Shown one piece after another: positions 1 through 41,615 of a DNA stretch of 41,615 nt. The DNA comes from a bacterium (lineage in GTDB: Bacteria > Cyanobacteriota > Vampirovibrionia > Gastranaerophilales > Gastranaerophilaceae), in assembly GCA_017942035.1 (NCBI GenBank), contig JAGAVG010000047.1, forward strand, positions 1 through 41,615, in the 5' to 3' direction. Position 1 is the first letter of the stretch. The number at the start of each line of letters is the position of its first letter. The position numbers and the translations under genes are program-made. The notes below the pieces were generated by a model that saw nothing but the letters and a program-made list of their open reading frames with translations, was not told the origin of the DNA and did not search any database.

Positions 1-30
1 CCTTGTGGGAGAGGGTTGGGGTGAGGGGTT
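1..30. repeat. Half of a REP-like GC-rich palindrome
   Basis: The first 30 bases read as one arm of a GC-rich palindrome (TTGTGGGAGAGGGTTGGGG), a word I recognise from REP-type repeats dispersed in many Gram-negative genomes. A related word (CCTTGTGGGAGCGAAA) occurs at 19412-19427 in the leader of the prepilin gene. The window starts at the centre of the palindrome, which fits an assembly break. Confidence 0.45.
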
Positions 31-78
31 AACTGGCTTGCCCTCCTGACCTCTTGCCTTCTGTTCTTCTATATTCAT
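1..78 (-). CDS. Prepilin gene start, cut by the window edge
   Basis: On the minus strand an ATG at 78 follows a good ribosome binding site (GGAGGA, 86-91) and opens a frame of 26 codons to the window edge, reading MNIEEQKARG then a Pro/Ser-rich stretch ending SPQPSPTR. No pilin domain is visible. The call rests on analogy with the prepilin gene at 18774-19607: that gene also has a leader encoded by repeat DNA containing the CTCCCACAAGG word, a similar AGAGGAT binding site, and a copy of the same 167-bp element just upstream. In that gene the leader runs straight into an FTLAEV pilin helix. The rest of this gene would lie left of the window. Confidence 0.45.
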   Translation of the reverse strand, partial: MNIEEQKARGQEGKPVNPSPQPSPTR

Positions 79-121: not shown

Positions 122-288
122 GCACCATAATTTATATTTTGATGCATGTCGGCCTGAAACTCACTAAAACATACCTTCTTAAAATTCAAAAAATTCACAA
201 AAAACGACAAAAGACCACTTGAAAATTGGTGGAAAATATTGTATAATAAGGCTATAAAAAACTCGCACCAAAATATAAAATTTGGTGC
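122..288 (+). mobile_element. MITE-like 167-bp element, copy 1
   Basis: The element is 167 bp with 24-bp imperfect terminal inverted repeats (122-145 and 265-288; 21 of 24 positions match after inversion, both beginning GCACCA). The interior includes CCTGAAACTCACTAAAACAT and GTATAATAAGGCTATAAAAA. The same sequence recurs at 19696-19862 with identical length and, inverted, at 41474-41615. No real gene is encoded; the short frame across it is incidental. The right terminal repeat is itself a hairpin (GCACCAAA/TTTGGTGC) followed by ATTTTTGT, so it could also terminate transcription. No clear target-site duplication is seen. Confidence 0.7.
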
Positions 289-18773: not shown

Positions 18774-19607
18774 CTATTCTTCAAATAAATATTGATAAGC
18801 ACAATATTTATTGTTATAAAAGCCGCCTTTTCCTTTATTACAGAAAGGCTCACCAGGGTTAATTTTTTCATCACGAGAAGGAGCGATAACACCGCGGCTT
18901 TTAGACATTATTAACATATATCTGTCGCGTCCCCAGATATTCGGTTTTTTGGCACCATTAATGTCAATACTTACAATTGCTTCCCTATCCTTATTGTTTA
19001 CACCAGAACCAAATTCCATATCAAAATCATAAACTATACCATCTTCTGTAACTGTGCAATAGTGGGACTCACTTCCCATTGAAATATCGTTGCTTTCCCA
19101 ACACCCCTGAGCTACACCTGAATTTGGAACCCATAAAGTACGAGAAAGATATTTAAATTTATTTTCAAAAAGATCACCCAAACATTGAGAATCATTTGTT
19201 AAACAGAGTTCACCAGGCATTTGACCGTACTCATTTGTAACTTGAAGATAGGCTTGACTTAGAGCGGAGTAAGCTTTTTTCAAAGCAGAAACCTCAGCCT
19301 TGTGCTGAAATTTTGTAACAAGCGAAGCAATCGTCATCGCTGCTACAACACCGATTATCCCGAGGGTAATCAAAACCTCGGCAAGGGTAAAAGCAGCTCT
19401 TTTCCCTCGCCCCTTGTGGGAGCGAAATTGCGGACGGACGGAGCATAAGCGAGTCCGGATAGCGAAACAGCGAGGGCGGATAAGTCCACTAGGACTAAAA
19501 GCCCGAGTCTGTGGAGCTTGGAGCAAATTCAAGACCGAACGGAGTGAGCGCGGCAATCCATTTGTTTCCGGTAGACTAAAGTCAACCCTACTACTATTTT
19601 TTATCAT
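18774..19607 (-). CDS. Type IV pilin-like protein with a long repeat-encoded leader
   Basis: This is a prepilin of the type IV pilus / type II secretion pseudopilin class. The prepilin peptidase site and hydrophobic helix are AA|FTLAEVLITLGIIGVV, with Ala instead of the usual Gly at -1 and Glu at +5. A globular domain with several Cys follows and contains VSIDINGAKKPNIWGRD. I choose ATG 19607 (MIKNSSRVDF) because AGAGGAT sits 5-8 bases upstream, like the homologous start at the left edge; ATG 19655 also has a good site (AAGGAG) and would add 16 residues. The leader before the cut is therefore about 72 residues instead of 6-25. It is encoded by GC-rich repeat DNA and reads as low-complexity basic sequence. 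Confidence 0.85.
   Translation of the reverse strand: MIKNSSRVDFSLPETNGLPRSLRSVLNLLQAPQTRAFSPSGLIRPRCFAIRTRLCSVRPQFRSHKGRGKRAAFTLAEVLITLGIIGVVAAMTIASLVTKFQHKAEVSALKKAYSALSQAYLQVTNEYGQMPGELCLTNDSQCLGDLFENKFKYLSRTLWVPNSGVAQGCWESNDISMGSESHYCTVTEDGIVYDFDMEFGSGVNNKDREAIVSIDINGAKKPNIWGRDRYMLIMSKSRGVIAPSRDEKINPGEPFCNKGKGGFYNNKYCAYQYLFEE
19400..19560. repeat. GC-rich repeat segment inside the prepilin leader
   Basis: About 160 bases of clearly higher GC than the surroundings contain several short palindromes (CGGAC...GTCCG at 19432-19457; GTCC ACTA GGAC at 19485-19496) and the CCTTGTGGGAG word shared with base 1. In the prepilin frame they encode the long leader, including RSHKGRGKRAA. The character is that of a dispersed intergenic repeat that has been captured in frame. 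Extent is approximate. Confidence 0.5.
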
Positions 19608-19695
19608 ATTATCCTCTTTTAAATTTTTGCCTTCCATAATTCTATATTTTAGCATCCTGTCTCCTTTCCAGCCATAAACTGATGTTTAAATTTTC

Positions 19696-19862
19696 GCACC
19701 ATAATTTATATTTTGATGCGAATAGGCCTGAAACTCACTAAAACATACCTTCTTAAAATTCAAAAAATCATCAAAAAACGACAAAAGACCACTTGAAATG
19801 TGTCTGAAAATATTGTATAATAAGGCTATAAAAAACTCGCACCAAAATATAAAATTTGGTGT
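19696..19862 (+). mobile_element. MITE-like 167-bp element, copy 2
   Basis: It has the same length and orientation as copy 1 at 122-288, with nearly the same sequence throughout. The terminal inverted repeats are at 19696-19719 and 19839-19862, the last base being T instead of C. It lies between the divergent prepilin and autotransporter genes, so it may affect the promoters of both. The remaining 19863-20020 is AT-rich leader of the autotransporter gene, with a weak TACAAT box near 19920 and no other gene. Confidence 0.7.
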
Positions 19863-20020
19863 ATTTTATTTGCGTTTACAAACTACCTCTAGCCCGACTA
19901 ATCTTTTAAAATTTTTATGCTACAATTTCTATTACAAGGCTGGATAAATTTTCTAAAATTACAAGGTTTTAGAATTTGATGATATGTGTTACATATTGTC
20001 AAAATATAAGGAAGTTGGAA

Positions 20021-23000
20021 ATGAATAAGAAGAAATTTATTGTTAGTTTATTATTGTTTGCAACTTTATTAAGTGTAACTTCAATGCCTTCTTATGCCGG
20101 ACTCGGAGGATTGTTGGCAGAGCATATTGTAGAACATTTTATAGAAGACTTTGGGCTGGATATTTTAGATATGTTTGTCAGTGCTGGACTTGTTGAGCTT
20201 GAACCTTACCAAGGTGCTTATGCAAACAAGATAATGAACCAACTGGATTATAAACTGCATGACTCCTCTCTTCTTGTGCTTCCGATAATCGATGCTACAA
20301 ATACATCTTTTGGCGGAGTCTCCTCCTCAAGAGACTTTTTTAATGTAATGGGAAGGGCTACGGTTGTTAATTATTCAAATTTAAAAGTTAACCCGAATAC
20401 TTCACAAGATATTACATTAAGAAAAAGTGATGTTAAAGGTGATATTGCTTACAAAGGTATGAACGCAGGCTTTATTAATTTTGGCGATATTGATTTGAAT
20501 GGCGGAACTATCAACCTAACAGGATATGACGGAACTCCAACTTTATCAAGAACTACAAACGGAAAACTAAATCTTAACGATTTATCAACACTTACTTATG
20601 AAAATATATTCAATGTGTTGGATTACAACTCTACTTACCCTACTAAAGAGCACTATATTTCATATTTTATAAATTCAAATCAGATTCAAGTTGATGCGGT
20701 ATCACCAACCCCGACAAAAGGCATAATTAACGACAATGTTTCGGTAAAAGGCGGTGCTATCTTTATAAATACATTTGATGCAGATATTGATAGAGATGAC
20801 TATCGCCCTTCTGTCCATTATCTTGAGGCAGAAGGAAGCGGAAATGTTATTTATAATTCAGGGGACATGAGCTTAGTTAGAGTCAACGGGCAAGATTCTG
20901 TTTTAATAAATGATAAAAGTCATATTACGGATCAGGCAGGAAAAGAATTACCTGAAAATAAACAAACCTCAGGATATATATTACAGCTTTCAGCAGGTGA
21001 CGGTTTTACAACATTAAATAATGAAGGTGCTTTAATTGATATCTATATAGCTAATGATGACAATAACAAACCTATTCTTTATAATAAAGGTACTGTTAAC
21101 TACATTGACAAAAACTATGGTATTATTGACGGTCTTAATATCGGAAAAATTGATTTCAGACCTAAAAATTATATTAGTGCTGATAAAGGCAATAATTATG
21201 GAATAATTAAAAATAGCTTGTTTAATGTTACCGGTAAATTATCATTTTATAACTATGGAGAATTTTCAAACGATAATCAACAATCTTCAATAGTTTTAAA
21301 CACAGATGCCAGATTCCATAATGAAAATAATGGTGGAATTATTAAAAATTACCTGATAGATAATAACAGTTTAGCATATCTCTATAATAACGGTGAAATA
21401 GTTCGGTCAAATATAGATAATGACGGAACTTTTTATAACGGAGAAAAGGATTCTAATGAAGGCTTAATAAAAGATTCTGTAATTAATAATTCTAAAGTGT
21501 TTTATAACTATGGAACAATTAACGATTCCGTAATCAACAACGACTATGAATTTCAAAACTATGGAGACATAAACGCTAATGAAATCAATACTTCGGGTCA
21601 TTCCAGTATGTCATATTTTAAAAACTATGGCAGTTTAAGAGCAGAAGAAGTGAACAATGATTCATCTTTTCAAATTCTTGGTAAATCTAATGGACTTAGC
21701 GGATATGCCCATATCGAAATATTAAACAACGAAGGTTCTGTTTATGTTAAAGACGGTGGTACGCTATCCGTTGTTTTTGGGGAAAATATTGATGGGAATT
21801 TATATTTAGAAGATGGCGGATATTTTCGTCCAAACGTTTATGGTGATATAAAACCTACATTTATAAATGACTCCAAATCTAATATAGAGGTTAAAGAAGG
21901 CGGGTATTTTGAGGATACTACGGTTGAAAACTATGGTAAATTTCAAAATGACGGAACAACCTCTGTAAATCAATTTAATAACCATAAGGATGGAACACTT
22001 ATCACTGGCTTTGACAATATTTTTACAAAAACCAATACTGTTAACAACGACGGTTTAGTCCAATTTCAAGGTAATGGTGATATTAATATTAACATCCACG
22101 GAGGCGGAGAAGTTGAACTTAACGGTAACGTAACCAATAACAGCGCTATTCATCAAGGCAAACTTACTATAAAAGAAGGTAATAAATTTACAACTCACGT
22201 TGGAGAAAAATATGTTGTAGATGAAACTGTAAATGATGGAGAAATTTATTTTATAAGAGGCGGTAATATCAGCGGCGGATATTCCGGCAACGGTACAATG
22301 ACTTTAGTAACTGATGATCCTATGTCATTAACCGGTTATACTTTTATAGGAAAAGAGCAGGAAAAAATTCAACAAAAAGATATTACTATAAATAGCTCTG
22401 TATATGCTACAAATAAAAGTGTTTTGGAAGTTTCGAACTATCTTATGATTGGCCCTAACTCTATATTGGATACTTATGCTGATACCATTATAAGTTCAGG
22501 GGGAAAACCTATTTCAAATTGGGGTACGCTGAATTTATTAGGAGGCATAAACTATAATACGATTGAAGATGGCGGAAAAACTGTTATTGTCGGCGATTCT
22601 GTTCGTAATGAAGCATTAATTGATCAGGAACTGGAAATTGATTATAATGCAAAACTTACAAGTGAACTTAAGAATATTGGCGGTCAATTTACAAATAAAG
22701 GTACTTTTGAACTTTTAGGAGATTTATCAGGTACTATCTTAGGGAATGGTACAACTGTTTTGCAAGACAGTATTGTAAAAGCAGCAGATGACAGTACTAT
22801 TGAGGGTATGCTTGACATGAACGGAGCTGCTCTTGATATGCAGGACAAAGAATTTTCAACCATAAATGTTGGCGGACTTCAAGGAATCGGAGATTTAAAA
22901 ATTGATGTTGCAGTAGGTAAGGACAAAAATAACAGTGATAAAATAAATATTACCAATACTTCTAATAACGCAGTCTTAAATCTTACGAATATTAAAATTA

Positions 23001-26000
23001 CAAACTCAGGTGATATCTCGGAAGATGACCGAGGGGAATATAAAAATGCTCTTACTTATGTTGATGGTAATGCAAACAACGGTATTACTTATCAAATAAA
23101 AGGAAAAACAGGAAGTAACGCTACATATAGAACTTTAGACAGACTTAATCTGTATGAATTTACACTTGGGGACAAAGGGAATTTAAATGTTAATATAAAA
23201 GAAAACCCGCTAAATCTTGATGATTACATAAACGGTTCAAATTCTATTATAACAAGTGTTGATGCTTATAATGTTCTTATGGATACTGAACTTGTATCTG
23301 TAACAACAGGTATTGCTGGATATTCACCTAAAAACAAACATTGGACTGTAAATCTTAATAATGGTTCAAAAATCTCTGCAAAAGGTGATGTTAATCAAAA
23401 CGACGGTATAACAATTACGCAAGACGCGACTTTTGATCTTGACGGTTCGCACAAAGCCGGCGCATCAATCGAAAACTTCAAAATTGCGATTATAAATAAC
23501 GGCAAATTGAACATAAATGATATTAAATTCCAAAATAACACTACCGATATTGAAAACAATGCTTTATTAAATTTAAACGGTACAAATGATATTAAAAATA
23601 TTGTGGGTAAGGGTACTACAACCATTAGCAGAGGTGAAACCAAAATAGCTGATATTACTCAAGACAAATTAAATGTTTTATCAAATGCTGTTTTGAAAGT
23701 TTCTAACACAAACATTTCAGACGGAATTACAAACGAAGGTAAGGTTCAGGCCTTAGGGAGAACCAATAATTCGGTTATTGCAGGTTCGGGAACACTTGAA
23801 ATCATGGGAAATGTTACAAATAATGCTTCAATTACCCAAAATAATTTGACTATTGCTGAAACAGGAGCTCTAACAAGTGCGATTAACAATCTTCATATAA
23901 CAAATGATATCCTAAACAACGGCACATTGGAATTAACAGATAATGGAACTTTATTTAATAACATCAACGGTTCTGATAACAGCCAAACAAAAATTAGCGG
24001 GAATATCATAAACAATGCAATTATTAATCAGGATGTTACCATAACTGAAAATGGAACACTTACAAGTTCATTTGATGGCCTGAATAAATCCGTAACTAAT
24101 AACGGCATATTCTATATGCAGGGTGATTTGACGAAGAATATTCAAGGTAATGGTACAACCGTTCTTCAAGATAAGAACGTAAATATCGTTAATGATAGAG
24201 TAGAAATTGCCGGAAACTTAGATTTAGACGGTAAAACTCTTGATATGAGAGACTCAAAAGGTACAAATCAAACTCTTTCAATCGGAGGAGCACTTAAAGG
24301 CAGCGGAAATTTAAAAATTGATGTCGATATGTCAAACGGTGAAAGTGACAAAATTGATTTAGCAAGCAAGGACAACAGTGCTACACTAAACCTAACCACA
24401 ATAAATATAACAAAAGACATAGATAATAACGGTTCTTTTGAAGATTACATAAATTATGTAACGGGATATACTAACGGTACTAATTTTCAAGTTGACGGAA
24501 ATGAGAATGGCGAACTTACAGTTCTTACAAATGGTATGAAATATACATTCACAAAAGGCGCTGATGGTTATTTAAATGTTTTATCTCAAAATCATACAGG
24601 CGGCTTAAGCGAATATATTAGAGGTGAAATTTCTGCTGAGAATTACTCAATAAATGATGATATGATTACGCTCGGAAATACCGATATTGGTGTAACAGGC
24701 GGAGAAAATCTTATAAAAAGAGTGTTCCTAAATAATGGAGCAACTCTGTCCGGCGACTTGCTCAACCAAAATGACGGCATAACTGTTGCAAAAAATTATG
24801 AACTTATTTTTGATGGTACTAATAAAGAAGGTGCAACTGTTAAAAACTACAAAACAGCACTCACAAACAACGGTACTGCAAATGTTATGGGAATAAAGTT
24901 TGAAAATAACGAAACAGATATTGAAAACAACGGTCAGTTAAACCTAACTAATAACAATACTCTCGATACGATTACCGGTAATGGTATTTTGAATATTAAT
25001 GACGGTACAACTAACGTCATCAAAAGCATTATCCAAAGCGAAATTAATATTAACAGTGACACTGCATTAATTACAAATGCAGACGGTTTAAAAGCAAATT
25101 CCATTAATAATGAGGGTACACTTGAACTTACAGGCGGAACACTTGCTCAAGTTGTAAACGGCGGCAATATTAGTATTACCGGTGATGTTTCAACAGAAGC
25201 TGATAATTTGCAAGGTATTACGAATATTAAAAATACATTGAATATAACAGGCGGTTCAATAAAACAAGAAATAAATTCCGATTTAGATTCTAATTTGAAC
25301 ATAACGGGCAACACAGCTTTAAAAGCAGACCTTTCAGGAGTTTTAGGTAATGTAAACTTGCAAAAAGGAACATTGAAACTTTCAGATAAAGGTACAATGT
25401 TTACAAATTCTCAAAACTTTACAGCCGCAAATAACACGACAATTGACCTTAATAACCGCAAATTAGAAGATTTGAACTTTAATAAAGTCACAATTGCTGA
25501 GGGTGATAACGTTAATTTAAAAATAGATTTTGGCGATACATTTAAAACATCTGATGATTCAAGTATTTTGGGGAACATAAATCTTGCATTGCTTGATGTA
25601 ACAAAACAAACAGAAGATAAAACTTATAATTTTACAAATCTGATTGACAATGTAGTTGTTGACTTTAAAAATACGGAACTTATTAAAACTCCGGAAAGTG
25701 TTGACTTTATTAACTATAATTCAGGAGATTTAATTGCAAAAAAAGTCGGAAACTTAGGCACTGCGATAAAAAATGCAATGACAGGCGAAAACCTTTACCA
25801 GCTGTCCGGTGATGACAATACCGCAGAATTTAACACCCTTTCAGGTGGAAACCTTACTGTTAAAGGTCAAGGTCATTCAATTACTACAACAGGAATTGTT
25901 GTAGATAATCAAAATACATTAACCTTGCAAGATGCAAATATAAAAAATGTTGCGACAGGTTCTGATAATAAAGCCGCAATTACACTTAATAAAGGGACAG

Positions 26001-27691
26001 TACTAAATATAAGTGCCACAAAAAACGATGTAACAATTAGCGGAACTAACGGTGATAACAGTAATGCAATTTATCTGGATAAAGATGCAGCACTCAATAT
26101 CAACGCACAAAAAAGTATTATAATTACAGATAACATTACCTCAAATGATAAAGCCAATACCGTAAATTTTAACGGTAATCTTATCGGTTTTGGCGGAAAT
26201 CTTGATAATGTGACAGCTGATGTAAACTCTGTTCTTGTAAGAGATGGTGCAGATAACGGTGTTTCTTATAACTTAAATGGCGGTGTTTTAAAATATACAA
26301 ATGATAAATATCTTTATGACCCGTCAAAAGGTGCATTAAACTCTATTAATTTCAACGGCGGTGCACTAGATTTGCGTAATGGAAGTGCGAACAATATAGT
26401 ATTAGAAAACATCAATCTTTCAGCCCCTTCTAATATGTTTATTGATGCAGATTTGGCAAAATTAAGTATGGATAGTCTGAACGCAGCTTCTGTTACAGGA
26501 AATCAAACATTAAACATTGCAGGAATAAGACTTTTGTCAGATGCTAAAGACGGATATACCTCAATTAACTTTACGAAAAATCCAACTCTGATGGCAGCAA
26601 TTAATTACGCAGGTAATAAAAACATTACCTATTCCCCAATTTGCAGATATCTTGTGGATTATGACGGTTCAATGGGTAATTTTAACTTTAAACGCAACGG
26701 ATTTAATCCGGCAGTACTTGCAGCTCCGGTTGCCGCTCAAGTTGGAAGTTATTTGTCTCAATTAAATATATATGAACAAGCATTTTCAAATATGGATATG
26801 GTGATGCTGATGACGAAAAAAGAACGTCAAGCAATGAAAATGGCAAATAAGTATGCAAACCAAGGTACAGGAGCTGGCGGAATAATAACCTTTAGCCCTA
26901 ATCAAATTCCTGAACAAAATAAAGGTGTATGGTTCAGACCATTTACAACTTTCGAAAATGTAGGACTTAAAAATGGGCCGAAAGTCGGAAACGTTGCTTA
27001 CGGTTCGCTGGTTGGCGGTGACAGCGAAATAATAGAACTTAAACACGGTTGGGATATGACATATTCTTTGTATGCAGGCTATACCGGTTCTCATCAAACT
27101 TATGATGGTGTGGGGATTTATCAAAACGGTGGCACTTTAGGTGCAAGTACAGCTTTTTATAAAGGTAATTTCTTTACAGGCTTAACAGCCAATGTCGGTG
27201 CAAATATTGCAGAAGCAAGCACAATGTTTGGCAGTGAAGATTTAACAATGCTTGCAACAGGTATTGCCAGTAAAACAGGTTATAATTTTGAACTTGCAGA
27301 CGGAAAATTTATTATCCAACCAAACTACTTAATGTCATACACATTTGTAAATACTTTTGATTACACAAATAAAGCAGGTGTAAGAATGAATTCAGATCCC
27401 CTGCATGCTATTCAAATTGCACCGGGTATAAAATTCATCGGGAACCTTAAAAATGGTTGGCAACCATATTTAGGTGTCCAAATGGTTTGGAACCTGCTTG
27501 ACGATACGAGATTTATGGCAAATAATGTTTCATTGTCTGATTTGAGTGTAAAACCTTATATTCAATATGGTATTGGTGTTCAAAAACGATGGGGCGAAAG
27601 ATTTACAGGATTTTTCCAAACAATGATAAGAAATGGCGGCAGAAATGGTATAGCGTTAACCGCAGGTTTCCGTTGGGCAATTGGAAAGTAA
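20021..27691 (+). CDS. Giant autotransporter (type Va) adhesin-like protein
   Basis: This is a 2556-residue protein. The start is ATG 20021 (MNKKKFIVSLLLFATLLSV), which gives a signal peptide ending at PSYA and follows AAGGAAG; the open frame upstream lacks these. The passenger (about 27-2250) is Asn/Thr/Gly-rich with endless short strands such as NNGTLEL and NNEGTLELTGG, as in beta-helical autotransporter passengers. Residues from about 900 to 1665 contain a tandem duplication of about 460 residues. A linker helix (YEQAFSNMDMVMLMTKKERQ) precedes the C-terminal barrel (about 2300-2556), beginning GVWFRPFTTFENV. The last residues FRWAIGK end in Lys rather than the usual aromatic. Role is probably surface adhesion; the ligand is unknown. 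Confidence 0.88.
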   Translation: MNKKKFIVSLLLFATLLSVTSMPSYAGLGGLLAEHIVEHFIEDFGLDILDMFVSAGLVELEPYQGAYANKIMNQLDYKLHDSSLLVLPIIDATNTSFGGVSSSRDFFNVMGRATVVNYSNLKVNPNTSQDITLRKSDVKGDIAYKGMNAGFINFGDIDLNGGTINLTGYDGTPTLSRTTNGKLNLNDLSTLTYENIFNVLDYNSTYPTKEHYISYFINSNQIQVDAVSPTPTKGIINDNVSVKGGAIFINTFDADIDRDDYRPSVHYLEAEGSGNVIYNSGDMSLVRVNGQDSVLINDKSHITDQAGKELPENKQTSGYILQLSAGDGFTTLNNEGALIDIYIANDDNNKPILYNKGTVNYIDKNYGIIDGLNIGKIDFRPKNYISADKGNNYGIIKNSLFNVTGKLSFYNYGEFSNDNQQSSIVLNTDARFHNENNGGIIKNYLIDNNSLAYLYNNGEIVRSNIDNDGTFYNGEKDSNEGLIKDSVINNSKVFYNYGTINDSVINNDYEFQNYGDINANEINTSGHSSMSYFKNYGSLRAEEVNNDSSFQILGKSNGLSGYAHIEILNNEGSVYVKDGGTLSVVFGENIDGNLYLEDGGYFRPNVYGDIKPTFINDSKSNIEVKEGGYFEDTTVENYGKFQNDGTTSVNQFNNHKDGTLITGFDNIFTKTNTVNNDGLVQFQGNGDININIHGGGEVELNGNVTNNSAIHQGKLTIKEGNKFTTHVGEKYVVDETVNDGEIYFIRGGNISGGYSGNGTMTLVTDDPMSLTGYTFIGKEQEKIQQKDITINSSVYATNKSVLEVSNYLMIGPNSILDTYADTIISSGGKPISNWGTLNLLGGINYNTIEDGGKTVIVGDSVRNEALIDQELEIDYNAKLTSELKNIGGQFTNKGTFELLGDLSGTILGNGTTVLQDSIVKAADDSTIEGMLDMNGAALDMQDKEFSTINVGGLQGIGDLKIDVAVGKDKNNSDKINITNTSNNAVLNLTNIKITNSGDISEDDRGEYKNALTYVDGNANNGITYQIKGKTGSNATYRTLDRLNLYEFTLGDKGNLNVNIKENPLNLDDYINGSNSIITSVDAYNVLMDTELVSVTTGIAGYSPKNKHWTVNLNNGSKISAKGDVNQNDGITITQDATFDLDGSHKAGASIENFKIAIINNGKLNINDIKFQNNTTDIENNALLNLNGTNDIKNIVGKGTTTISRGETKIADITQDKLNVLSNAVLKVSNTNISDGITNEGKVQALGRTNNSVIAGSGTLEIMGNVTNNASITQNNLTIAETGALTSAINNLHITNDILNNGTLELTDNGTLFNNINGSDNSQTKISGNIINNAIINQDVTITENGTLTSSFDGLNKSVTNNGIFYMQGDLTKNIQGNGTTVLQDKNVNIVNDRVEIAGNLDLDGKTLDMRDSKGTNQTLSIGGALKGSGNLKIDVDMSNGESDKIDLASKDNSATLNLTTINITKDIDNNGSFEDYINYVTGYTNGTNFQVDGNENGELTVLTNGMKYTFTKGADGYLNVLSQNHTGGLSEYIRGEISAENYSINDDMITLGNTDIGVTGGENLIKRVFLNNGATLSGDLLNQNDGITVAKNYELIFDGTNKEGATVKNYKTALTNNGTANVMGIKFENNETDIENNGQLNLTNNNTLDTITGNGILNINDGTTNVIKSIIQSEININSDTALITNADGLKANSINNEGTLELTGGTLAQVVNGGNISITGDVSTEADNLQGITNIKNTLNITGGSIKQEINSDLDSNLNITGNTALKADLSGVLGNVNLQKGTLKLSDKGTMFTNSQNFTAANNTTIDLNNRKLEDLNFNKVTIAEGDNVNLKIDFGDTFKTSDDSSILGNINLALLDVTKQTEDKTYNFTNLIDNVVVDFKNTELIKTPESVDFINYNSGDLIAKKVGNLGTAIKNAMTGENLYQLSGDDNTAEFNTLSGGNLTVKGQGHSITTTGIVVDNQNTLTLQDANIKNVATGSDNKAAITLNKGTVLNISATKNDVTISGTNGDNSNAIYLDKDAALNINAQKSIIITDNITSNDKANTVNFNGNLIGFGGNLDNVTADVNSVLVRDGADNGVSYNLNGGVLKYTNDKYLYDPSKGALNSINFNGGALDLRNGSANNIVLENINLSAPSNMFIDADLAKLSMDSLNAASVTGNQTLNIAGIRLLSDAKDGYTSINFTKNPTLMAAINYAGNKNITYSPICRYLVDYDGSMGNFNFKRNGFNPAVLAAPVAAQVGSYLSQLNIYEQAFSNMDMVMLMTKKERQAMKMANKYANQGTGAGGIITFSPNQIPEQNKGVWFRPFTTFENVGLKNGPKVGNVAYGSLVGGDSEIIELKHGWDMTYSLYAGYTGSHQTYDGVGIYQNGGTLGASTAFYKGNFFTGLTANVGANIAEASTMFGSEDLTMLATGIASKTGYNFELADGKFIIQPNYLMSYTFVNTFDYTNKAGVRMNSDPLHAIQIAPGIKFIGNLKNGWQPYLGVQMVWNLLDDTRFMANNVSLSDLSVKPYIQYGIGVQKRWGERFTGFFQTMIRNGGRNGIALTAGFRWAIGK
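22718..25020 (+). repeat. Tandem duplication inside the autotransporter passenger
   Basis: Two consecutive modules align over long stretches: GDLSGTILGNGTTVLQD (from 22718) with GDLTKNIQGNGTTVLQD (from 24122), and VNQNDGITITQD (from 23390) with LNQNDGITVAKN (from 24761). The period is 1.37-1.40 kb. Divergence at protein level is substantial, so the duplication is old rather than an assembly artefact. Confidence 0.75.
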
Positions 27692-29103: not shown

Positions 29104-30936
29104 ATGGATGAAAAAAATAAAATCAGAGAACGTTACAAAGGTTATAATAATGATAAGCAATTTGTGATACCAGCAAAATCGCAACCTTCAATTTATGATG
29201 ATTCAATAAAGCTGAGGGTTGCGGTTTACGCACGGGTTTCTACAGATAATGTCCAACAGACTTCTTCGTTTGAATTACAAAGAAATCATTATACAGATTT
29301 AGTTAATAAAAATCCAAATTGGACACTTGTTGATATTTATGCTGATGAAGGTATTTCTGGAACTTCATTAAATCATCGTGATGAGTTTATCCGAATGATA
29401 GAAGATTGCAGAACAGGAAAAATTGATTTAATCATTACTAAAAGTGTTTCACGTTTTGCAAGAAATACCGTTGATTGTATTGCATATATAAGAGAATTAA
29501 AAAATTTAAAATCTCCAGTAAATATAATATTTGAATCCGAAGGTATAAACACTATTGATGATAAAAGCGAGATGGCTATTTCATTTCTTGCAACTTTAGC
29601 ACAGGAAGAATCGCACATTAAAAGTAATATTATGAATTCTTCCATTGAAATGAGATTTAATAGAGGCTTATATCTTGTTTCTCCATTACTGGGTTACGAT
29701 TTAGATGAAAACAAAAATCTTGTAATTAATCCAGAGGAAGCAAAAACTGTAAAATTAATTTTCTATATGTATCTTGCAGGCTCAACTCCTGAACAGATTG
29801 CAAAAACTTTGGAAGAGTATGAACGTAAAACGAAGAAGGGTAATACAAAATGGTCATCAAATTCTATATTACAAATACTTCAAAATGAAAGAGAATGCGG
29901 AGATTTATTATCTAGAAAAACTTGGACTCCAAGCTATTTAGACCATAAATCAAAGAAAAATAAAGGAGACAAACCGCAGTACGGAATGAAAGAGCATCAT
30001 GAAGGTATTATTTCCAGAGATGATTTTATTGCTGTTCAAAAATTAATACGAAATGCAAAATATAAACACAAAGGATTTTTACCTGAATTAAAAGTTATTA
30101 AAAATGGCGTTTTGCAAGGCTTTGTTACTATAAATATCAGATGGTCAGGCTTTTCAGCACAAAATTATTTAGATGCATCAAAAAGCGCATATAATAATGC
30201 AGCCCAAAACAATGAAATTGAAGTGCAAGTACAAAAAGGGGATTTTGATTTAAGAAAATTCGAAGTTGCTAGGGCTCAATTTTTTGATACAGCACAAAAA
30301 ACTTGTGTAACTTTTTCTAATCATTTAATTACGTTTAACACTGATTGTATAAGAAAGTTTGGAAATGTAAAGTATGTAGAAATGCTTATAAATCCTGTAA
30401 AAAAACTTTTCGCAGTAAGACCATATAAATCAGCACAAACAAATAAAAACATTGTTCAATGGGCAAAAATTAAAAACGGAGTTTATATTTCGCGAGTTAT
30501 ACATGGGATGGCATATGCAAACACTTTTTTTGAAATGTTAGGCTGGGATTCTAAATATAAATATAGAGTGAGAGGGATTAAATACCAAAAACAAGAAGAA
30601 CAATTTATAATATTTGATTTAGCAGAACCGGAATTATTTATATCTCAAAAAAAAGATATTATTGACACAAAACCGGTATTAGAAAATATAAAACCCTTTA
30701 CATATGGAAAAAATAATGATATTTTAGCATACCCAAATAGCTGGGAACAGAATTTTGGAAACAATTTCTATGAACAAATTCAGATAAAAGAAATTGAAAA
30801 TATAGATGATTGGAAGTCGCAAGATGAAGGAAATCTTTATAAAACGCATAATTTACAGGTTACAAGTGAAGATGACGTTAATTCCGAAATTAAAATTTTA
30901 AAAACAGATATGGAGTTAAATAAAGATGACAAATGA
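29104..30936 (+). CDS. Large serine recombinase (integrase)
   Basis: This is a 610-residue recombinase. The resolvase catalytic domain (about 36-185) has nucleophile S46 in VYARVSTD and the SVSRFARNT arginine block. The Recombinase domain follows (about 190-310; SPLLGYDL, WSSNSILQILQNERECGD). Large serine integrases normally carry a Cys4 zinc ribbon next; no CxxC is visible here. A different C-terminal region (about 330-530) with LITFNTDCIRKFGNVKYVEM and KKLFAVRPYK takes its place and recurs in the next two proteins. It likely integrates and excises the element at the tRNA-Ser repeats. No strong binding site precedes ATG 29104. The next gene overlaps its end by 11 bases. Confidence 0.92.
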   Translation: MDEKNKIRERYKGYNNDKQFVIPAKSQPSIYDDSIKLRVAVYARVSTDNVQQTSSFELQRNHYTDLVNKNPNWTLVDIYADEGISGTSLNHRDEFIRMIEDCRTGKIDLIITKSVSRFARNTVDCIAYIRELKNLKSPVNIIFESEGINTIDDKSEMAISFLATLAQEESHIKSNIMNSSIEMRFNRGLYLVSPLLGYDLDENKNLVINPEEAKTVKLIFYMYLAGSTPEQIAKTLEEYERKTKKGNTKWSSNSILQILQNERECGDLLSRKTWTPSYLDHKSKKNKGDKPQYGMKEHHEGIISRDDFIAVQKLIRNAKYKHKGFLPELKVIKNGVLQGFVTINIRWSGFSAQNYLDASKSAYNNAAQNNEIEVQVQKGDFDLRKFEVARAQFFDTAQKTCVTFSNHLITFNTDCIRKFGNVKYVEMLINPVKKLFAVRPYKSAQTNKNIVQWAKIKNGVYISRVIHGMAYANTFFEMLGWDSKYKYRVRGIKYQKQEEQFIIFDLAEPELFISQKKDIIDTKPVLENIKPFTYGKNNDILAYPNSWEQNFGNNFYEQIQIKEIENIDDWKSQDEGNLYKTHNLQVTSEDDVNSEIKILKTDMELNKDDK

Positions 30937-31552
30937 TTTCAATGAACAAAATTTTACAAACTGTATTCAACCTGTTTTATTCACTAAAGAAGAGGTCGAA
31001 CAACTTGATTTCAATTATGAAGGATATCAAGTAGTAAGAGGAGAATATTTTGCACATTTATTTGAGCCATCAATTACATTTAATATGAATAAAGTATATT
31101 TAAATATGGCTTGTATAAAAAAGTTTCCAAATGTAGATTATGTCCAAATACTTGTAAATTCTGAAGATAAAAAACTCGCAGTTCGTCCTTGCAGCGGAGA
31201 AGAAAAAGATTCATTTTTGTGGTGTACAGCAAAACGAAAACCTAAACAAATTACTTGTCGTGTATTTTGGGGTAAAATCGCTGAATTGTTAGATTGGAAT
31301 AATAATTACAGGTACAAATTACTTGGAAAATTAATTAAAAGTAACGACGAATTTTTATTTATTTTTGACCTTACATCGCCTGAAATTTTTATCCGAACTG
31401 TTATGGAAGATGGAAAACCAAAAATTTCTAAACGACCGATTTTCCCTGCTGAATGGCAGAACCAATTTGGGCTGCCTGTCAGTGAACATAAAAAACGTAT
31501 GCAAGTCGGAAAATTTGACGGCTATACAATATTTGGTATTACAGAAAAATAG
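30926..31552 (+). CDS. Recombinase-associated protein sharing its C-terminal domain
   Basis: This 208-residue protein repeats the C-terminal domain of the recombinase: ITFNMNKVYLNMACIKKFPN, DYVQILVNSEDKKLAVRPCS, RVFWGKIAELLDWNNNYRYK and IFDLTSPEIFI align in order with ITFNTDCIRKFGN, EMLINPVKKLFAVRPYK, AYANTFFEMLGWDSKYKYR and IIFDLAEPELFI. It has no catalytic resolvase domain. ATG 30926 overlaps the recombinase stop and follows GGAG, so the two are coupled. It may be a recombination directionality or accessory factor; that role is inference. Confidence 0.7.
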   Translation: MTNDFNEQNFTNCIQPVLFTKEEVEQLDFNYEGYQVVRGEYFAHLFEPSITFNMNKVYLNMACIKKFPNVDYVQILVNSEDKKLAVRPCSGEEKDSFLWCTAKRKPKQITCRVFWGKIAELLDWNNNYRYKLLGKLIKSNDEFLFIFDLTSPEIFIRTVMEDGKPKISKRPIFPAEWQNQFGLPVSEHKKRMQVGKFDGYTIFGITEK

Positions 31553-31564
31553 AGGAGAATACAA

Positions 31565-31936
31565 ATGGAAAATAGAAAAACATTAAACCCATCAGTATCA
31601 ATAAATCTACGAAAACCTGTTGTTAGAATTAATAAGGATACGATATCTGCAATCGGCAATCCTGAATACATAATATTACTCGTAAATCCGGAAGATTGCT
31701 CCTTGGGAATTTCTCCAGGTAACAAAAATGATAGGAGAGCTCACTGTATATCAAAATACAATAGTACGAGAAATACTATGGAATTATACAGTAAATCTTT
31801 TGTAGATAATCTCGTTAAATTATGTCCAACCTGGCACAAGCAAGGTAGTTATAAAATTAAAGGTGAAGAAATTAAAGGGATGAATGTCGTCAAATTTTCA
31901 ATGGTAGATGCTATTGAAATAATAGGAGGAAAATAA
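31565..31936 (+). CDS. Small paralogue of the recombinase C-terminal domain
   Basis: This 123-residue protein carries the core of the same domain: PVVRINKDTISAIGNPEYI, ILLVNPEDCSLGISPGNK, MELYSKSFVDNLVKLCPTWH and VVKFSMVDAIEI. It follows GAGGAG and lies 12 bases after the preceding gene. Its stop overlaps the next start (TAATG). It is the third consecutive gene with this domain. Function is unknown; partnership with the recombinase is likely. Confidence 0.65.
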   Translation: MENRKTLNPSVSINLRKPVVRINKDTISAIGNPEYIILLVNPEDCSLGISPGNKNDRRAHCISKYNSTRNTMELYSKSFVDNLVKLCPTWHKQGSYKIKGEEIKGMNVVKFSMVDAIEIIGGK

Positions 31937-32757
31937 TGATTGATTACAAAGAATTTATACCGAATGTACATTTTGAACTTATTCCAATTAAAGATTTGGT
32001 ATCCAATCAGGATTATCAACGTAATTTGTCAGAAGCACATATAAAACGTGCGGTGGACAATTTCGATTTATATCAGATTAATCTGGTAAAAGTCAGCAGA
32101 CGTGACGGAATAAATTATGTTATAAACGGACAACATACTATGGAGATTGTGGCAAGAAAATCTCAATCCAATGAAACTCCGGTATGGTGTATGATTTATG
32201 ATGATCTGGAATACACTCATGAAGCAAATATTTTTGCTAATCAGCAAAAGTACGTAAAACCTCTTACTCCTTATGATATATTTGTAGCAAATATAGAAGC
32301 CGGAAATGAAGAACAATTAATATTAAAAGCATTAGTTGAATCTTATAATATGCGAATCTCAAAAACAAAATGTCATGGTGGAATTTGTGCAATATCTGCA
32401 TTGGAATATATTTACAAGACATTTGGCTACCAGGTTTTAGATCAAACATTAAAGTTATGTATTGCAACATGGGAAGGAGAAGTTAACTCTTTTGGTGCAA
32501 ATATGCTTAAAGGTATTGCAAAACTTGTTGTTGCATATGAAGATGAACTAGACGAAAATATTTTTAAAGAAAAGTTAGGGACATATTCGATAAATAAAAT
32601 TGTTAGGAGTGCAACGGAGCGAAACAATGGCTCGACTGGATATGCTGAAACAATGTTGGATTTTTATAATAAACGTTTAAAAACCCCATTGCATAAGGGG
32701 AAATTGAAGAGTAATAAATTTGTAAATATACCAGAATATTCAGTTAAAGATTTATGA
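31936..32757 (+). CDS. ParB-like (DUF6551-type) protein
   Basis: This 273-residue protein starts with a ParB/sulfiredoxin-like fold: IPIKDLVSNQDYQRNLSEAH then INYVINGQHTMEIVARK, in which the GQH block corresponds to the ParB GxxR motif region. The C-terminal part is helical (about 110-250). It recalls the DUF6551 proteins found beside recombinases in Firmicutes elements. It is the last gene of a coupled four-gene run with the recombinase. It may bind DNA in partition or in control of excision. It converges on the TPR gene and overlaps it by 6 bases. Confidence 0.68.
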   Translation: MIDYKEFIPNVHFELIPIKDLVSNQDYQRNLSEAHIKRAVDNFDLYQINLVKVSRRDGINYVINGQHTMEIVARKSQSNETPVWCMIYDDLEYTHEANIFANQQKYVKPLTPYDIFVANIEAGNEEQLILKALVESYNMRISKTKCHGGICAISALEYIYKTFGYQVLDQTLKLCIATWEGEVNSFGANMLKGIAKLVVAYEDELDENIFKEKLGTYSINKIVRSATERNNGSTGYAETMLDFYNKRLKTPLHKGKLKSNKFVNIPEYSVKDL

Positions 32758-35700
32758 AACACTATTAAATATAGCGAATTTAATAATAAATTCAGCATAA
32801 ACATTAAGTATTTGTTTTATATCTGATGGGGCATTAAATACTATACGTTTGACTTCTTGTATATTTTGATCTTTATCGTTAAATTTTATATTTAATGGCA
32901 TACGTATTACATACTTGTAATAATCTACAATATACTCTTTATCTGAAACTGTTTCCCAAAATTTACAAGCAATATACTTTTGAACTAAATTGCTTAAAAA
33001 GTGGTGATACCTCATTAAATATTCCATAAATAACTGAATTATTTCTTCATGTTGGCTTAATTTTTTACACTTATCAAATATTAAATCAATTATTTCAAAA
33101 ATTTTACTGTTAGAAAAATTATTATCTTGATTTAATATATAAACATATTCAGATAATACATCTGCTACTGATTCCTTATCAAATTTTTCATCTAAATAAT
33201 CAATAGTTTTCTGTAATTTTTCAAGTTTTAAATCAGTAATACAATATATTTCTTTTGCTGTTAATGGTATATATTTACAGTTGAATTCAATGAGTTTATA
33301 TTTAAGTTCAGTTTCTTTTTGGGCAGTAATAATATTATTTTCTTTAAGATAGTTAATTATGCTTATTATAGAAACATCTTTATATTTGAATTCTTTACTT
33401 AAGATATGAGTTACTTCATCAGAAGAACAAATAGAATAATCGTTTTGTACCGCAACAGTTGCATCGTATAAGAAATCTTTTGAATTGAGTTTTTCAGAAG
33501 CTTCAATTAATGCTAAAGCTTTTTTTGATTGTGATTTGAAATTTGCTTGGTCTAAAGCATTTAAACAATTTTTTAAATATTCTTTATATTTATAAATTTT
33601 GTTTTTTACAAATATTATATTAGGATTTCCTTCCTTATCTCTAATCAACTTCTCGATAGTATCTCCAGTAATATCATTAAGAATAAAGTTTATTTCATTT
33701 TTTGTTTGTGCTGTAATTTTGATTTTTAAATTAGTAAATACGATATCATCTAATTCTAAGGCTTTTAACAATATTAAAGACTGAGGTGCCATTATAATAT
33801 TTTTATTCTTGTTTATTATATTAACTTCATTTTCATATTCATCATTTGTACGTCGTGTTAATGCAATTATTTGCCTATTATCTTCGATAAAATTGGCAAA
33901 CAAAACACTTTGTTTAGTCCCAAATAATTCTGATGTTAAGGCTAATGGATATTTAAAATTATCATAATTAGAAAGACCATCTTCAAAAAATTTTTCTCTT
34001 TTGACATAGTTCTTATACGGCTCAAATGTTTCTATTGCTTGTTTTAAACTTTCAATAGGATTATCCATATCAATTTTGAATGAGCATAATAATTTATTTT
34101 TCTCTAATATTTTTGAACATTGTTGAAATAAATTTCTTGTTTGTTCATTCACTGTATGGCTTTTTAGTAAAAAACTAAATAATATTTGATTTAGTTTTAA
34201 ATCATCTGGAAATTCTTGTAAACCTTGAACAAAAATTTCAATAATATTTGTATCCTCTATTTTTTTTGCTACTCCTAGTTCGATTTTTAAATAGAAATAT
34301 TGTAGCTTATGTTTTTCTTTATATTTTAATGAATTTATTAGAGTTTCAGCTTTTGTATATTCTTTTTTTACTATATATGCTCGTGCTATTAGCGGTAAAA
34401 GAAAGTCTTCTCTTATACCCTTTTCATAATTTTCAATAAGTGTATCTGTGTTATAATTTATTGAATCAATTTGAGCATAAAGATTTTTTATTGTTACATT
34501 TTCTGGTTCATATTTTTCCAAAATTTCTAAATTACTTAAACATTTAGAATACATTCCTCTATTAAATAAATCAATTGTATTAAGCATTCCTATATCAAAA
34601 TTTTCTATACTTTTATTTCTAGCCCAATATTTTTCAATTAATTTTTCTCGTAGTTTATTTATATCAATTTCAGTATTAAAAAAAGCTAAACCATGAGCAA
34701 TTTTATATACAAACTTGCAATCATATTTGTTGGGAAATTTTATAATGTTGTTGGAAATTTGTTTTAATAAATTAAGTTCATCATCGTAGTAATTATTATC
34801 ATGGAATAACCATATGCATAAAAGCAATAATTGATCACTGTAATTGTGATAGCTGTTTTTTATATATTGTTCGGTTTGTTCCCATCCATATTCTTTGTAA
34901 ATTGATATAATTTTAAATTGTTCATTTAATTCATTAAATTCATTTATTTGTTCAAGTACTTCTTTATATTTTTGTTCACCAAATAAAATAATTATATAAT
35001 TATTTTTACTTAATTTTTTAGTTTCTTCTTTTAATAAGGTATAAATTTCATGAGCTTTAGAATATTGATTACAAAGAATGTTTAAATATAAGGTTTCAAG
35101 AAGAACACTATCATCAGAATTTTTATTTTTAATTATAACATCATTAATTTCTTTAATATTAACTTTATCTTGTTCAAATTTGTTTATTAAATATTTAATC
35201 AAGTATATTTTTATTTTAATAGTTGTAATTAAGTATTCATGATTTTTATACGTTTTATTTAAACCATTTAGAACATCTTCTAAATTTTGTAAAAGATTAA
35301 AAAATGTCTGTTTTACTTTTATTTGAAGCGTATTGGGTATAATTTTTAATATTCCCTCGGTGTTTATATCAAAAACAAAATATAATTTTGATTTATTGAA
35401 TAAATTTATAAACTGACAATTAACAAGATTATATTTTGCAATTATATTATCTTGTTTGGATTTATTAATATACTCTTTTAGATTTTTTTCAGCTTGTTTG
35501 GAACTTATTTTTTTAGGATTTTTTAAATCTAAAAGAGCTTTTAAAAATAAATAATCTTCAGCTTCTTTTAAATTTGTTTCCAAATAGCTTTTTGCAACGT
35601 CAAATTTTTGAGTTATACATAAATATTTCAAAAATACTAATCTATAATAAAGATCTGAATTTTTATTATTAAATTTTTTAAGATACTCATCGTATGATTC

Positions 35701-41150: not shown

Positions 41151-41330
41151 TATCGTATCTGCACCTCGAAAAAATGAAAAAGAGAATTTGGGTAGGAAAA
41201 GTTTAAAAATTTGCGAAAATATGATGAGAAAAATTCTCTTAAAAAATAAGCATAGCAAAAACCGCCCACACAGGGCGGTTTTTCAATTTTGTATCTGCAC
41301 TGATTCTCAGTTTGTGGACTTAAAAACGGA
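41151..41330 (+). repeat. Right direct repeat (candidate attR)
   Basis: This is the 180-bp partner of 28313-28492. It holds an intact terminator hairpin (CCGCCC ACACA GGGCGG) and ends 4 bases inside the tRNA-Ser 3' end. It serves as the natural downstream region of that tRNA, so this copy keeps the tRNA locus functional. Confidence 0.85.
41257..41283 (-). terminator. Terminator of the tRNA-Ser gene
   Basis: The hairpin AAAAACCGCCC / GGGCGGTTTTT with a 5-base loop lies 44 bases beyond the tRNA 3' end and reads in both directions. The left-repeat copy has lost one stem pair. Confidence 0.85.
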
Positions 41331-41413
41331 GAGGGTGGGATTCGAACCCACGGTAAGTGTTACCTCACACAGACTTTCGAGATCCGCACCTTAAACCACT
41401 CGGACACCTCTCC
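41327..41413 (-). tRNA. tRNA-Ser (anticodon CGA)
   Basis: On the minus strand an 87-nt type II tRNA has acceptor GGAGAGG/CCTCTCC, discriminator G, D-arm TCCGAGTGGTTTAAGG, anticodon loop CTCGAAA (CGA, reads UCG), a long variable arm (TGTGAGGTAACACTTACC) and T-arm GTGGGTTCGAATCCCAC. CCA is not encoded. A TATACT box lies upstream at 41432-41437. The gene is intact and forms the insertion target of the adjacent element. Confidence 0.96.
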
Positions 41414-41473: not shown

Positions 41474-41615
41474 GCACCAAATTTTATATTTTGATGCGAG
41501 TTTTTTATAGCCTTATTATACAATATTTTTAGACACATTTCAAGTGGTATTTTGTCATTTTTTGCGAATTTTTTGAATTTTGAAAGGGTATGTTTTAGTG
41601 AGTTTCAGGCCCACA
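41474..41615 (-). mobile_element. MITE-like element, copy 3, cut by the window end
   Basis: This is an inverted copy of the 167-bp element: the terminal repeat is at 41474-41497 and the interior continues through ATTGTATAATA and GTTTTAGTGAGTTTCAGG (read in the respective strands) to the window end. About 25 bp, including the other terminal repeat, are missing. It sits just upstream of the tRNA-Ser promoter. Confidence 0.7.

Follow-up and report, generated by a model that had tools for sequence, protein, structure and literature searches.

The leader of FTLAEV-type prepilins in a lineage of Gastranaerophilales is quite probably a sink for repeat DNA. According to the mechanism proposed here, translation would begin far 5' of the cleavage site, at a module that is conserved, and the ribosome would read one or several dispersed repeats in frame up to the Ala- or Gly-FTLAEV junction, where the prepilin peptidase should cut off everything translated before FTLAEV, so that the extra residues would be harmless. 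Selection would hold the reading frame and the basic residues before the cut, and the protein sequence of the leader would be weakly held. DNA that inserts or recombines without breaking the frame would thus be kept, and mosaics of different repeats would accumulate. New leaders may come about in three ways: dispersed repeats are acquired, pilin paralogues exchange pieces, or the cleavage motif is duplicated in tandem. The DNA points in this direction through the maintenance of frame, the identity of the repeats and the use of some of them in several frames or on both strands, as well as through the near-absence of repeats from the mature parts, the short leaders of relatives and the different repeats of another genus.

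The prepilin gene and its family

The window, meaning the whole stretch of 41,615 nucleotides, is contig C79 of a draft genome of 1,994,118 bases in 84 contigs, which is 99.67% complete. On its reverse strand lies a prepilin gene (18774-19655) with paralogues in its own genome, encoding a product of 293 aa that matches PF07963 (23.6 bits against a cut-off of 21.2, motif at residues 85-108) and TIGR02532 (18.8 bits against 16.3). Its leader coding region (19392-19655, reverse strand) comprises 88 codons when read from the ATG at 19655, which is served by AAGGAG at 19661-19666 with a spacing of 5. The ATG at 19607 has a weaker site (AGGA, spacing 4) and would give a leader of 72 aa, and an intermediate in-frame ATG (82-aa leader) has no Shine-Dalgarno-like site. 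The first-pass annotation had put the leader at about 72 residues, which agrees with the ATG at 19607, but the best ribosome site gives 88. Its claim that the stretch 19400-19607 is translated in frame up to the peptidase site, with Ala at -1, is true from either ATG. Its description of the leader as dispersed repeat DNA also stands, since 209 of the 264 leader bases (leader bases 54-262; 19394-19602, reverse strand) have a copy outside pilin genes. This part belongs to repeat family R7, which has 6 copies in leaders and 8 elsewhere, and the DNA from 19385 to 19660 matches 47 places across the genome, its own locus counted. The further description of the segment as filled with palindromes is weak for the window copy, since the RNA fold of the leader is no better than that of shuffled sequences (z = +1.17; 179 of 200 shuffles equal or better). 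Rfam gave no RNA family at the locus, the two matches being at chance level by E-value, and thus no riboswitch is proposed.

The mature pilin, from FTLAEV to the stop codon (18774-19391, reverse strand), is predicted to consist of an N-terminal helix (residues 3-55) and beta strands. Its structure model (pLDDT 78.6) has the helix at residues 3-55, and the N-terminal part of the prepilin's family profile matches pilins of solved structure, PilA best (E 2.3e-5). Foldseek with the model found no match at E <= 0.001, and the best pilin Z of 5.2 was lower than those of unrelated folds (up to 6.1). At the left contig end, a second prepilin-like gene (1-78, reverse strand) has a leader that starts MNIEEQKARGQEGKPVNPSPQPSPTR and is truncated by the contig end, with the FTLAEV part beyond the edge; the first-pass annotation had ascribed a similar design to it, and this leader is indeed built on another repeat.

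The genome contains 122 exact FTLAEV-L-I/M motif sites, and 120 FTLAEV prepilin open reading frames, drawn from 1,101,539 bases of the genome, were analysed. One exact site (C4:33380) ends after 14 codons and is absent from the filtered prepilin list. A single match to the prepilin peptidase (PF01478) lies above the cut-off. The motif is present in 200 of 241 genomes drawn from the order, with 0 to 140 sites per genome, and the two other genomes of the same genus have 17 and 5 sites. In a scan of named genomes, the mature part of the window gene used as query found no relatives; a better conserved paralogue found 80 loci, of which 51 are titled Candidatus Gastranaerophilales. A separate class of large prepilin-like proteins of 702-766 aa carries GFTLAEMMVVM (C77:73004, C40:47728 and C40:60534), and two of these three reading frames have a repeat interval within their 3' part.

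Translation of the leaders

The 450 nt preceding each of the 120 FTLAEV sites together contain 107 ATGs that follow a Shine-Dalgarno site; 99 of these share the reading frame of the motif and run open to it. Such an in-frame start exists for 96 of the 120 prepilins, and the other 24, of which 13 are truncated by contig ends, lack one by the rule used. Leader length, taken from the most upstream in-frame ATG with a ribosome site, ranges from 5 to 135 residues (n = 96; median 47) and exceeds 25 in 75 cases. Among leaders of at least 40 aa, frame 0 is open in all 61, whereas the other two frames are open in 0 of 122 cases; the long leaders are therefore very probably translated. Ala occupies position -1 in 110 of the 120 prepilins and Gly in the other 10, and K or R occurs at -6 to -2 in 118. 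Both the start sites and the cleavage of these prepilins are predicted features.

Repeat DNA in the leaders

Across the 96 leaders, 10,730 of 14,307 bases (75.0%) have a copy outside prepilin genes, and 73 leaders carry at least 25 such bases. The corresponding values are 3,555 of 62,577 bases (5.7%) for the mature parts and 4,152 of 369,528 (1.1%) for 300 sampled other reading frames. By another count, 117 repeat intervals lie outside the leader zones, 99 of them also outside any reading frame of at least 100 aa; some of these intervals, at contig ends, will be truncated pilin genes. The families differ in their distribution between leaders and other places, with 31 and 24 copies for R1, 21 and 15 for R2, 22 and 16 for R4, 34 and 13 for R5, and 28 and 1 for unit U, the duplicated motif. 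Leaders use several frames and both strands of R1 and R4b, both strands of R3, R7 and R8, and a single frame of R4 and R5. All 22 leader copies of R4 are open versus 7 of 14 copies elsewhere, and the same holds for R5R2 (31 of 31 versus 4 of 10). In the frame of the query, R1, R5 and R7 are broken in some of their leader copies, most of which are taken to be used in another frame or partly aligned.

When leaders were compared with each other, 2041 ungapped pairs shared strand and frame, 60 differed in frame and 237 lay on opposite strands, with 1528 gapped pairs left out. Differences at codon positions 1, 2 and 3 numbered 2912, 4768 and 5662 in leaders, 3382, 2012 and 7316 in mature bodies, and 13921, 708 and 66087 in the first 20 mature codons. 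The queries for these pair and codon-position comparisons ran from the upstream in-frame stop and include some bases 5' of the start, and the pairs are not independent, so the counts are descriptions rather than tests. The leaders are not fully free, since first-position differences are fewer than second- or third-position ones. It seems that the leaders share sequence partly at the DNA and not at the protein level, and that their protein sequence is weakly held. Gap lengths modulo 3 were uninformative, as leaders could not be separated from other copies. As the sharing is mostly on the same strand and in the same frame, copying or recombination between pilin genes would contribute as well as fresh insertion.

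Changes in the leaders and their relatives

Leaders and bodies combine freely among the paralogues. In comparisons whose queries again ran from the upstream in-frame stop, 551 pairs share at least 90 nt at 85% identity or more 5' of the cut, and the bodies (residue 26 onward) of 539 of these are less than 40% identical or unalignable. Conversely, 12 paralogues whose bodies are linked at 65-81% have leaders of 9 to 86 codons with differing repeat make-up, similar leaders among them being those of C23_306 and C84_239 and those of C53_26281 and C67_15767. In one pair with 98.9% identical bodies, one leader is MTKRFG and the other is MTKRFG followed by two 54-base units, each repeating FTLAEV. Tandem duplication of the cleavage motif, as FTLAEV-FSSHFAGRRKTA-FTLAEV, is a further way for leaders to grow, one absent from the first-pass annotation. 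A prepilin on C63 (F at contig position 33396, reverse strand) has four tandem leader units of 51-54 bases, with the intact or decayed cleavage motifs FTLAEV, YTSAEA, FTSAEA and YTSAEA.

In the orthologue group, most of the 70 listed leaders are short, and 7 carry a similar unit, FTLAE-GATHVDM...-FTLAEV. The distance from stop to motif, which is an upper bound on leader length, has a median of 18.5 in G001, of the same genus, and of 121 in G050, of another genus. A leader in G173, also of another genus, uses other repeats, with 22 of 37 matches in leader zones and 15 elsewhere; these 37, out of 43 matches in all, are the ones on contigs with listed motif sites. As leaders are short in G001 and built of other repeats in G173, repeat-built leaders seem to have arisen more than once.

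The first-pass annotation had suggested comparing leader lengths among related prepilins and leader DNA with repeats elsewhere. Among relatives, leaders of the same genus are short and those of another genus contain different repeats, and in this genome three quarters of leader bases have a copy outside prepilin genes. It had named a start just before FTLAEV and conservation at the protein level as evidence to the contrary; neither was found, given that the ATG of LAMTK has no Shine-Dalgarno site and some repeats are used in different frames or on different strands. Its proposal that repeats spread by insertion into leaders fared less evenly. Repeats do occur in many leaders, but sharing is mostly on the same strand and in the same frame, and a RAYT-type transposase (Y1_Tnp, PF01797) had 0 matches in the genome, with 5 of 14 control genomes positive. 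As for the direction of spread, from intergenic DNA into leaders or the reverse, the data are not polarised.

Alternative explanations for the leaders

The long N-termini might instead be untranslated, with translation starting at internal ATGs near FTLAEV and the repeats acting as 5' untranslated RNA elements, a role suggested for REPs at the starts of reading frames in other species. Some repeats do place an ATG 4-5 codons 5' of FTLAEV, and PMC3733652 argues that many REPs at annotated N-termini fall outside the true gene. However, the internal ATGs of the long leaders have no Shine-Dalgarno site apart from a weak GAGG (spacing 3) in C57_6626 and C76_6251, whereas the upstream ATGs have AAGGAG or GGAGG. 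Together with the frame kept open in every long leader and with repeat copies that are broken about half the time outside leaders, this makes an untranslated leader very unlikely. It is also unlikely that the leaders are functional protein segments, such as targeting tags, for which repeats were recruited on account of the encoded peptide. The first codon position is least variable in leaders, K or R is kept near the cut and R4 and R5 use a single frame, as such a role would have it, but R1 and R4b give different peptides in different frames and strands, close paralogues and orthologues manage without these repeats, and second-position changes are nearly as frequent as third-position ones. The mosaics could further have been created by the assembly, since the genome is a draft and its contigs break at repeats, and indeed 13 of 120 leaders are truncated by contig ends and 11 of 94 cores of the upstream block described below lie near contig ends with no readable gene. 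Artefacts would not be expected to leave the frame intact in 61 of 61 leaders, and other assemblies show the pattern as well, with different repeats, so that this explanation is scarcely credible. Nevertheless, single leaders could be misjoined, since many of the 84 contigs break at these repeats.

A more substantial alternative is that the shared 5' parts serve mainly as recombination homology, such that a constant cassette of promoter block, leader and N-terminus would allow more than 100 bodies to be exchanged or homogenised for antigenic diversification. In the means over 70 genes with enough flank, DNA at about -220 to -40 from the start is common to 46-54 of 69 other genes, falling to about 28 at the start and about 24-28 in the leaders, and the first 60 mature bases are common to about 49-58 of 69, with less than 1 beyond base 190. 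Duplication with diverging bodies and conversion of 5' ends would give the same pattern, however, and no body-swap event was traced between strains; this reading is regarded as possible, though doubtful. A sink for repeat DNA is accordingly the reading preferred for the leaders.

The upstream block, a candidate invertible promoter

Upstream of the window prepilin lies a block of about 170 bp (19696-19862, reverse strand) in the orientation of most copies, lying between two palindromic sites of 24 bp that are inverted relative to each other. These inverted-repeat arms lie at 19696-19719, proximal to the gene, and at 19839-19862, distal to it, the latter resembling a terminator on both strands in a consensus scan. 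Between them, a sigma70-like promoter, TTGAAA-17-TATAAT (19793-19821, forward strand), points away from the prepilin. It aims at a divergent reading frame of 2571 aa (19976-27691, forward strand) that is repetitive over long stretches and whose C-terminus, by eye, resembles that of an autotransporter; the terminator-like site is located between them. The second window gene has its own block between two palindromic sites (122-288, reverse strand). A third block (41474-41615, forward strand) is present in its beginning only, as the contig ends before any gene, and a tRNA gene (41327-41413, reverse strand; Rfam gathering cut-off) adjoins it near the right contig end.

The block could be judged in 97 of the 120 prepilins, 13 being truncated by contig ends and 10 having less than 200 nt upstream, and it is present in 79 of the 97; the script had assigned a block to 80 and none to 17. 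In all, 94 block cores were found, of which 14 are unassigned, 3 lying before variant-motif prepilins (C32_3840 and reading frames on C3 and C34) and 11 near contig ends. Forty aligned copies have a mean column identity of 90%, and both promoter hexamers are invariant among them, the spacer being variable. Repeats in the leader showed no link with the block, occurring in 63 of 77 genes with it and in 14 of 19 without it (Fisher p = 0.52).

The block points away from the gene in 77 of 79 copies and towards it in 2 (C77_56764 and C1_9553), so that both orientations are seen among paralogous copies at different loci. In the two flipped copies, the gene-proximal flank is kept and the interior is inverted between the sites. 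A third inverted block, at C11_437, was considered and rejected, as its outer flank belongs to a divergent neighbouring block truncated by the contig end. One contig end (C82, 1-420) is palindromic around the block, with the upstream flank recurring as its reverse complement, a possible assembly trace of both orientations. An inverted-repeat score of at least 16 was reached by 62 of 86 upstream regions versus 0 of 86 shuffled ones. By consensus scan, the window block contains 3 promoter-like sites versus a shuffled mean of 1.8, and thus a consensus match alone proves little. All 81 blocks in which both flanks are present contain a promoter match of 11 of 12 positions facing the same way; in the opposite direction, the best score is 8 to 10. 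The T-run of a terminator for the outward transcript is found on the outer flank of the distal site in 72 of 74 cases and on the gene-side flank in 3 of 81.

On the plain reading of these sequences, the block is a candidate invertible promoter that would switch its gene by phase variation, with most copies off. That the majority orientation might be the ON state was rejected, as the best promoter points away from the gene. Alternatively, the palindromes could be repressor operators or terminators around a fixed promoter and the two flips chance rearrangements. Each site is itself palindromic and the distal one resembles a terminator, flipped copies amount to 2 of 79, and the consensus scan is near the shuffled level, all of which would fit such an arrangement. 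Against this, an invariant promoter that points outward in all 81 blocks makes little sense as the fixed promoter of the prepilin, and both flipped copies keep the gene-proximal flank while swapping the interior. A fixed promoter is hence given some credence but is not favoured over an invertible one.

Five tyrosine-recombinase and six serine-recombinase matches were found in the genome. A tyrosine recombinase of 181 aa (C69:88163) matches a model of tyrosine-type DNA invertases below the cut-off, and its relatives occur in many genomes without the block. Within the window, the region 29104-32757 (forward strand) encodes a large serine recombinase of 610 aa (PF00239; Ccr-like below the cut-off), followed by small reading frames, one of them ParB-like by eye, and is perhaps an integrated mobile element. 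In 58 other genomes, with 13 candidates scored per genome, the block gave only matches of about 24-32 bases. Among the relatives sampled, a paired inverted repeat at prepilin promoters is not general, and prepilin upstream regions are not widely shared. A 21-bp inverted repeat (GGACAATCTATAAATG...) with a span of 78 bp is common to the regions upstream of two prepilins in G173.

Comparison with known systems and significance

The proteins resemble type IV prepilins in the basic residues before the cut, A or G at -1, F at +1, E at +5, the hydrophobic helix and the single peptidase match. They differ in leader length, which reaches 135 residues here and is usually 6-25 in type IV prepilins. Invertible promoters are known from the fim switch and from the capsule promoters of Bacteroides. 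As invertons are defined in the available text of PMC11892184, the likeness consists in a promoter-like sequence that short inverted repeats enclose upstream of genes for surface structures; copies in either orientation occur here as well, known from one assembly only, and dozens of near-identical copies serve one pilin family.

For the leaders, the closest precedent in the text available to us is provided by the RPEs of Rickettsia, palindromic elements inserted in frame in protein-coding genes (PMC10969869, PMC3733652). By description rather than by sequence, they are like the leaders of Gastranaerophilales in that dispersed repeat DNA is translated in frame within genes. As the accessible parts of these sources describe them, RPEs strike many unrelated genes, whereas here one gene family is concerned, almost only in the part expected to be cleaved, a removable leader. 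Several repeat families are moreover used at once, some in several frames or on both strands, unlike RPEs. The conserved encoded peptide typical of RPEs is not seen here, as R1 and R4b are read in multiple frames and strands and R3, R7 and R8 on both strands, with R4 and R5 keeping to one frame. With the REP/RAYT system, as far as the available text of PMC3733652 describes it, the likeness lies in short, mostly intergenic repeats with some copies at N-termini of reading frames; the genome studied here differs in having no Y1_Tnp match and in holding its N-terminal copies in frame. Among the matches listed from the open-licence literature, there was no report of repeat-built prepilin leaders or of phase variation in Gastranaerophilales.

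Taken further, more than 100 pilin genes may be mostly silent, most of them with their own copy of one invertible promoter that faces a terminator, away from the gene, until it is flipped, and the leaders may act as a landing and recombination zone for repeats, where front ends are gained, lost or swapped without touching the pilus; the chances of this wider picture are put at slightly below even. If true, a very large family of invertible promoters would govern one surface structure, and protein-coding DNA would serve as a sink for repeats. The leaders would offer a natural case of nearly free change in translated DNA, in a protein part that should be removed. How repeats survive within genes is an old question that now becomes directly testable, owing to the more than 60 long leaders that can be compared within a single genome and to the independent leaders of another genus. 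If the block inverts, these little-known cyanobacterial relatives could vary their pili gene by gene.
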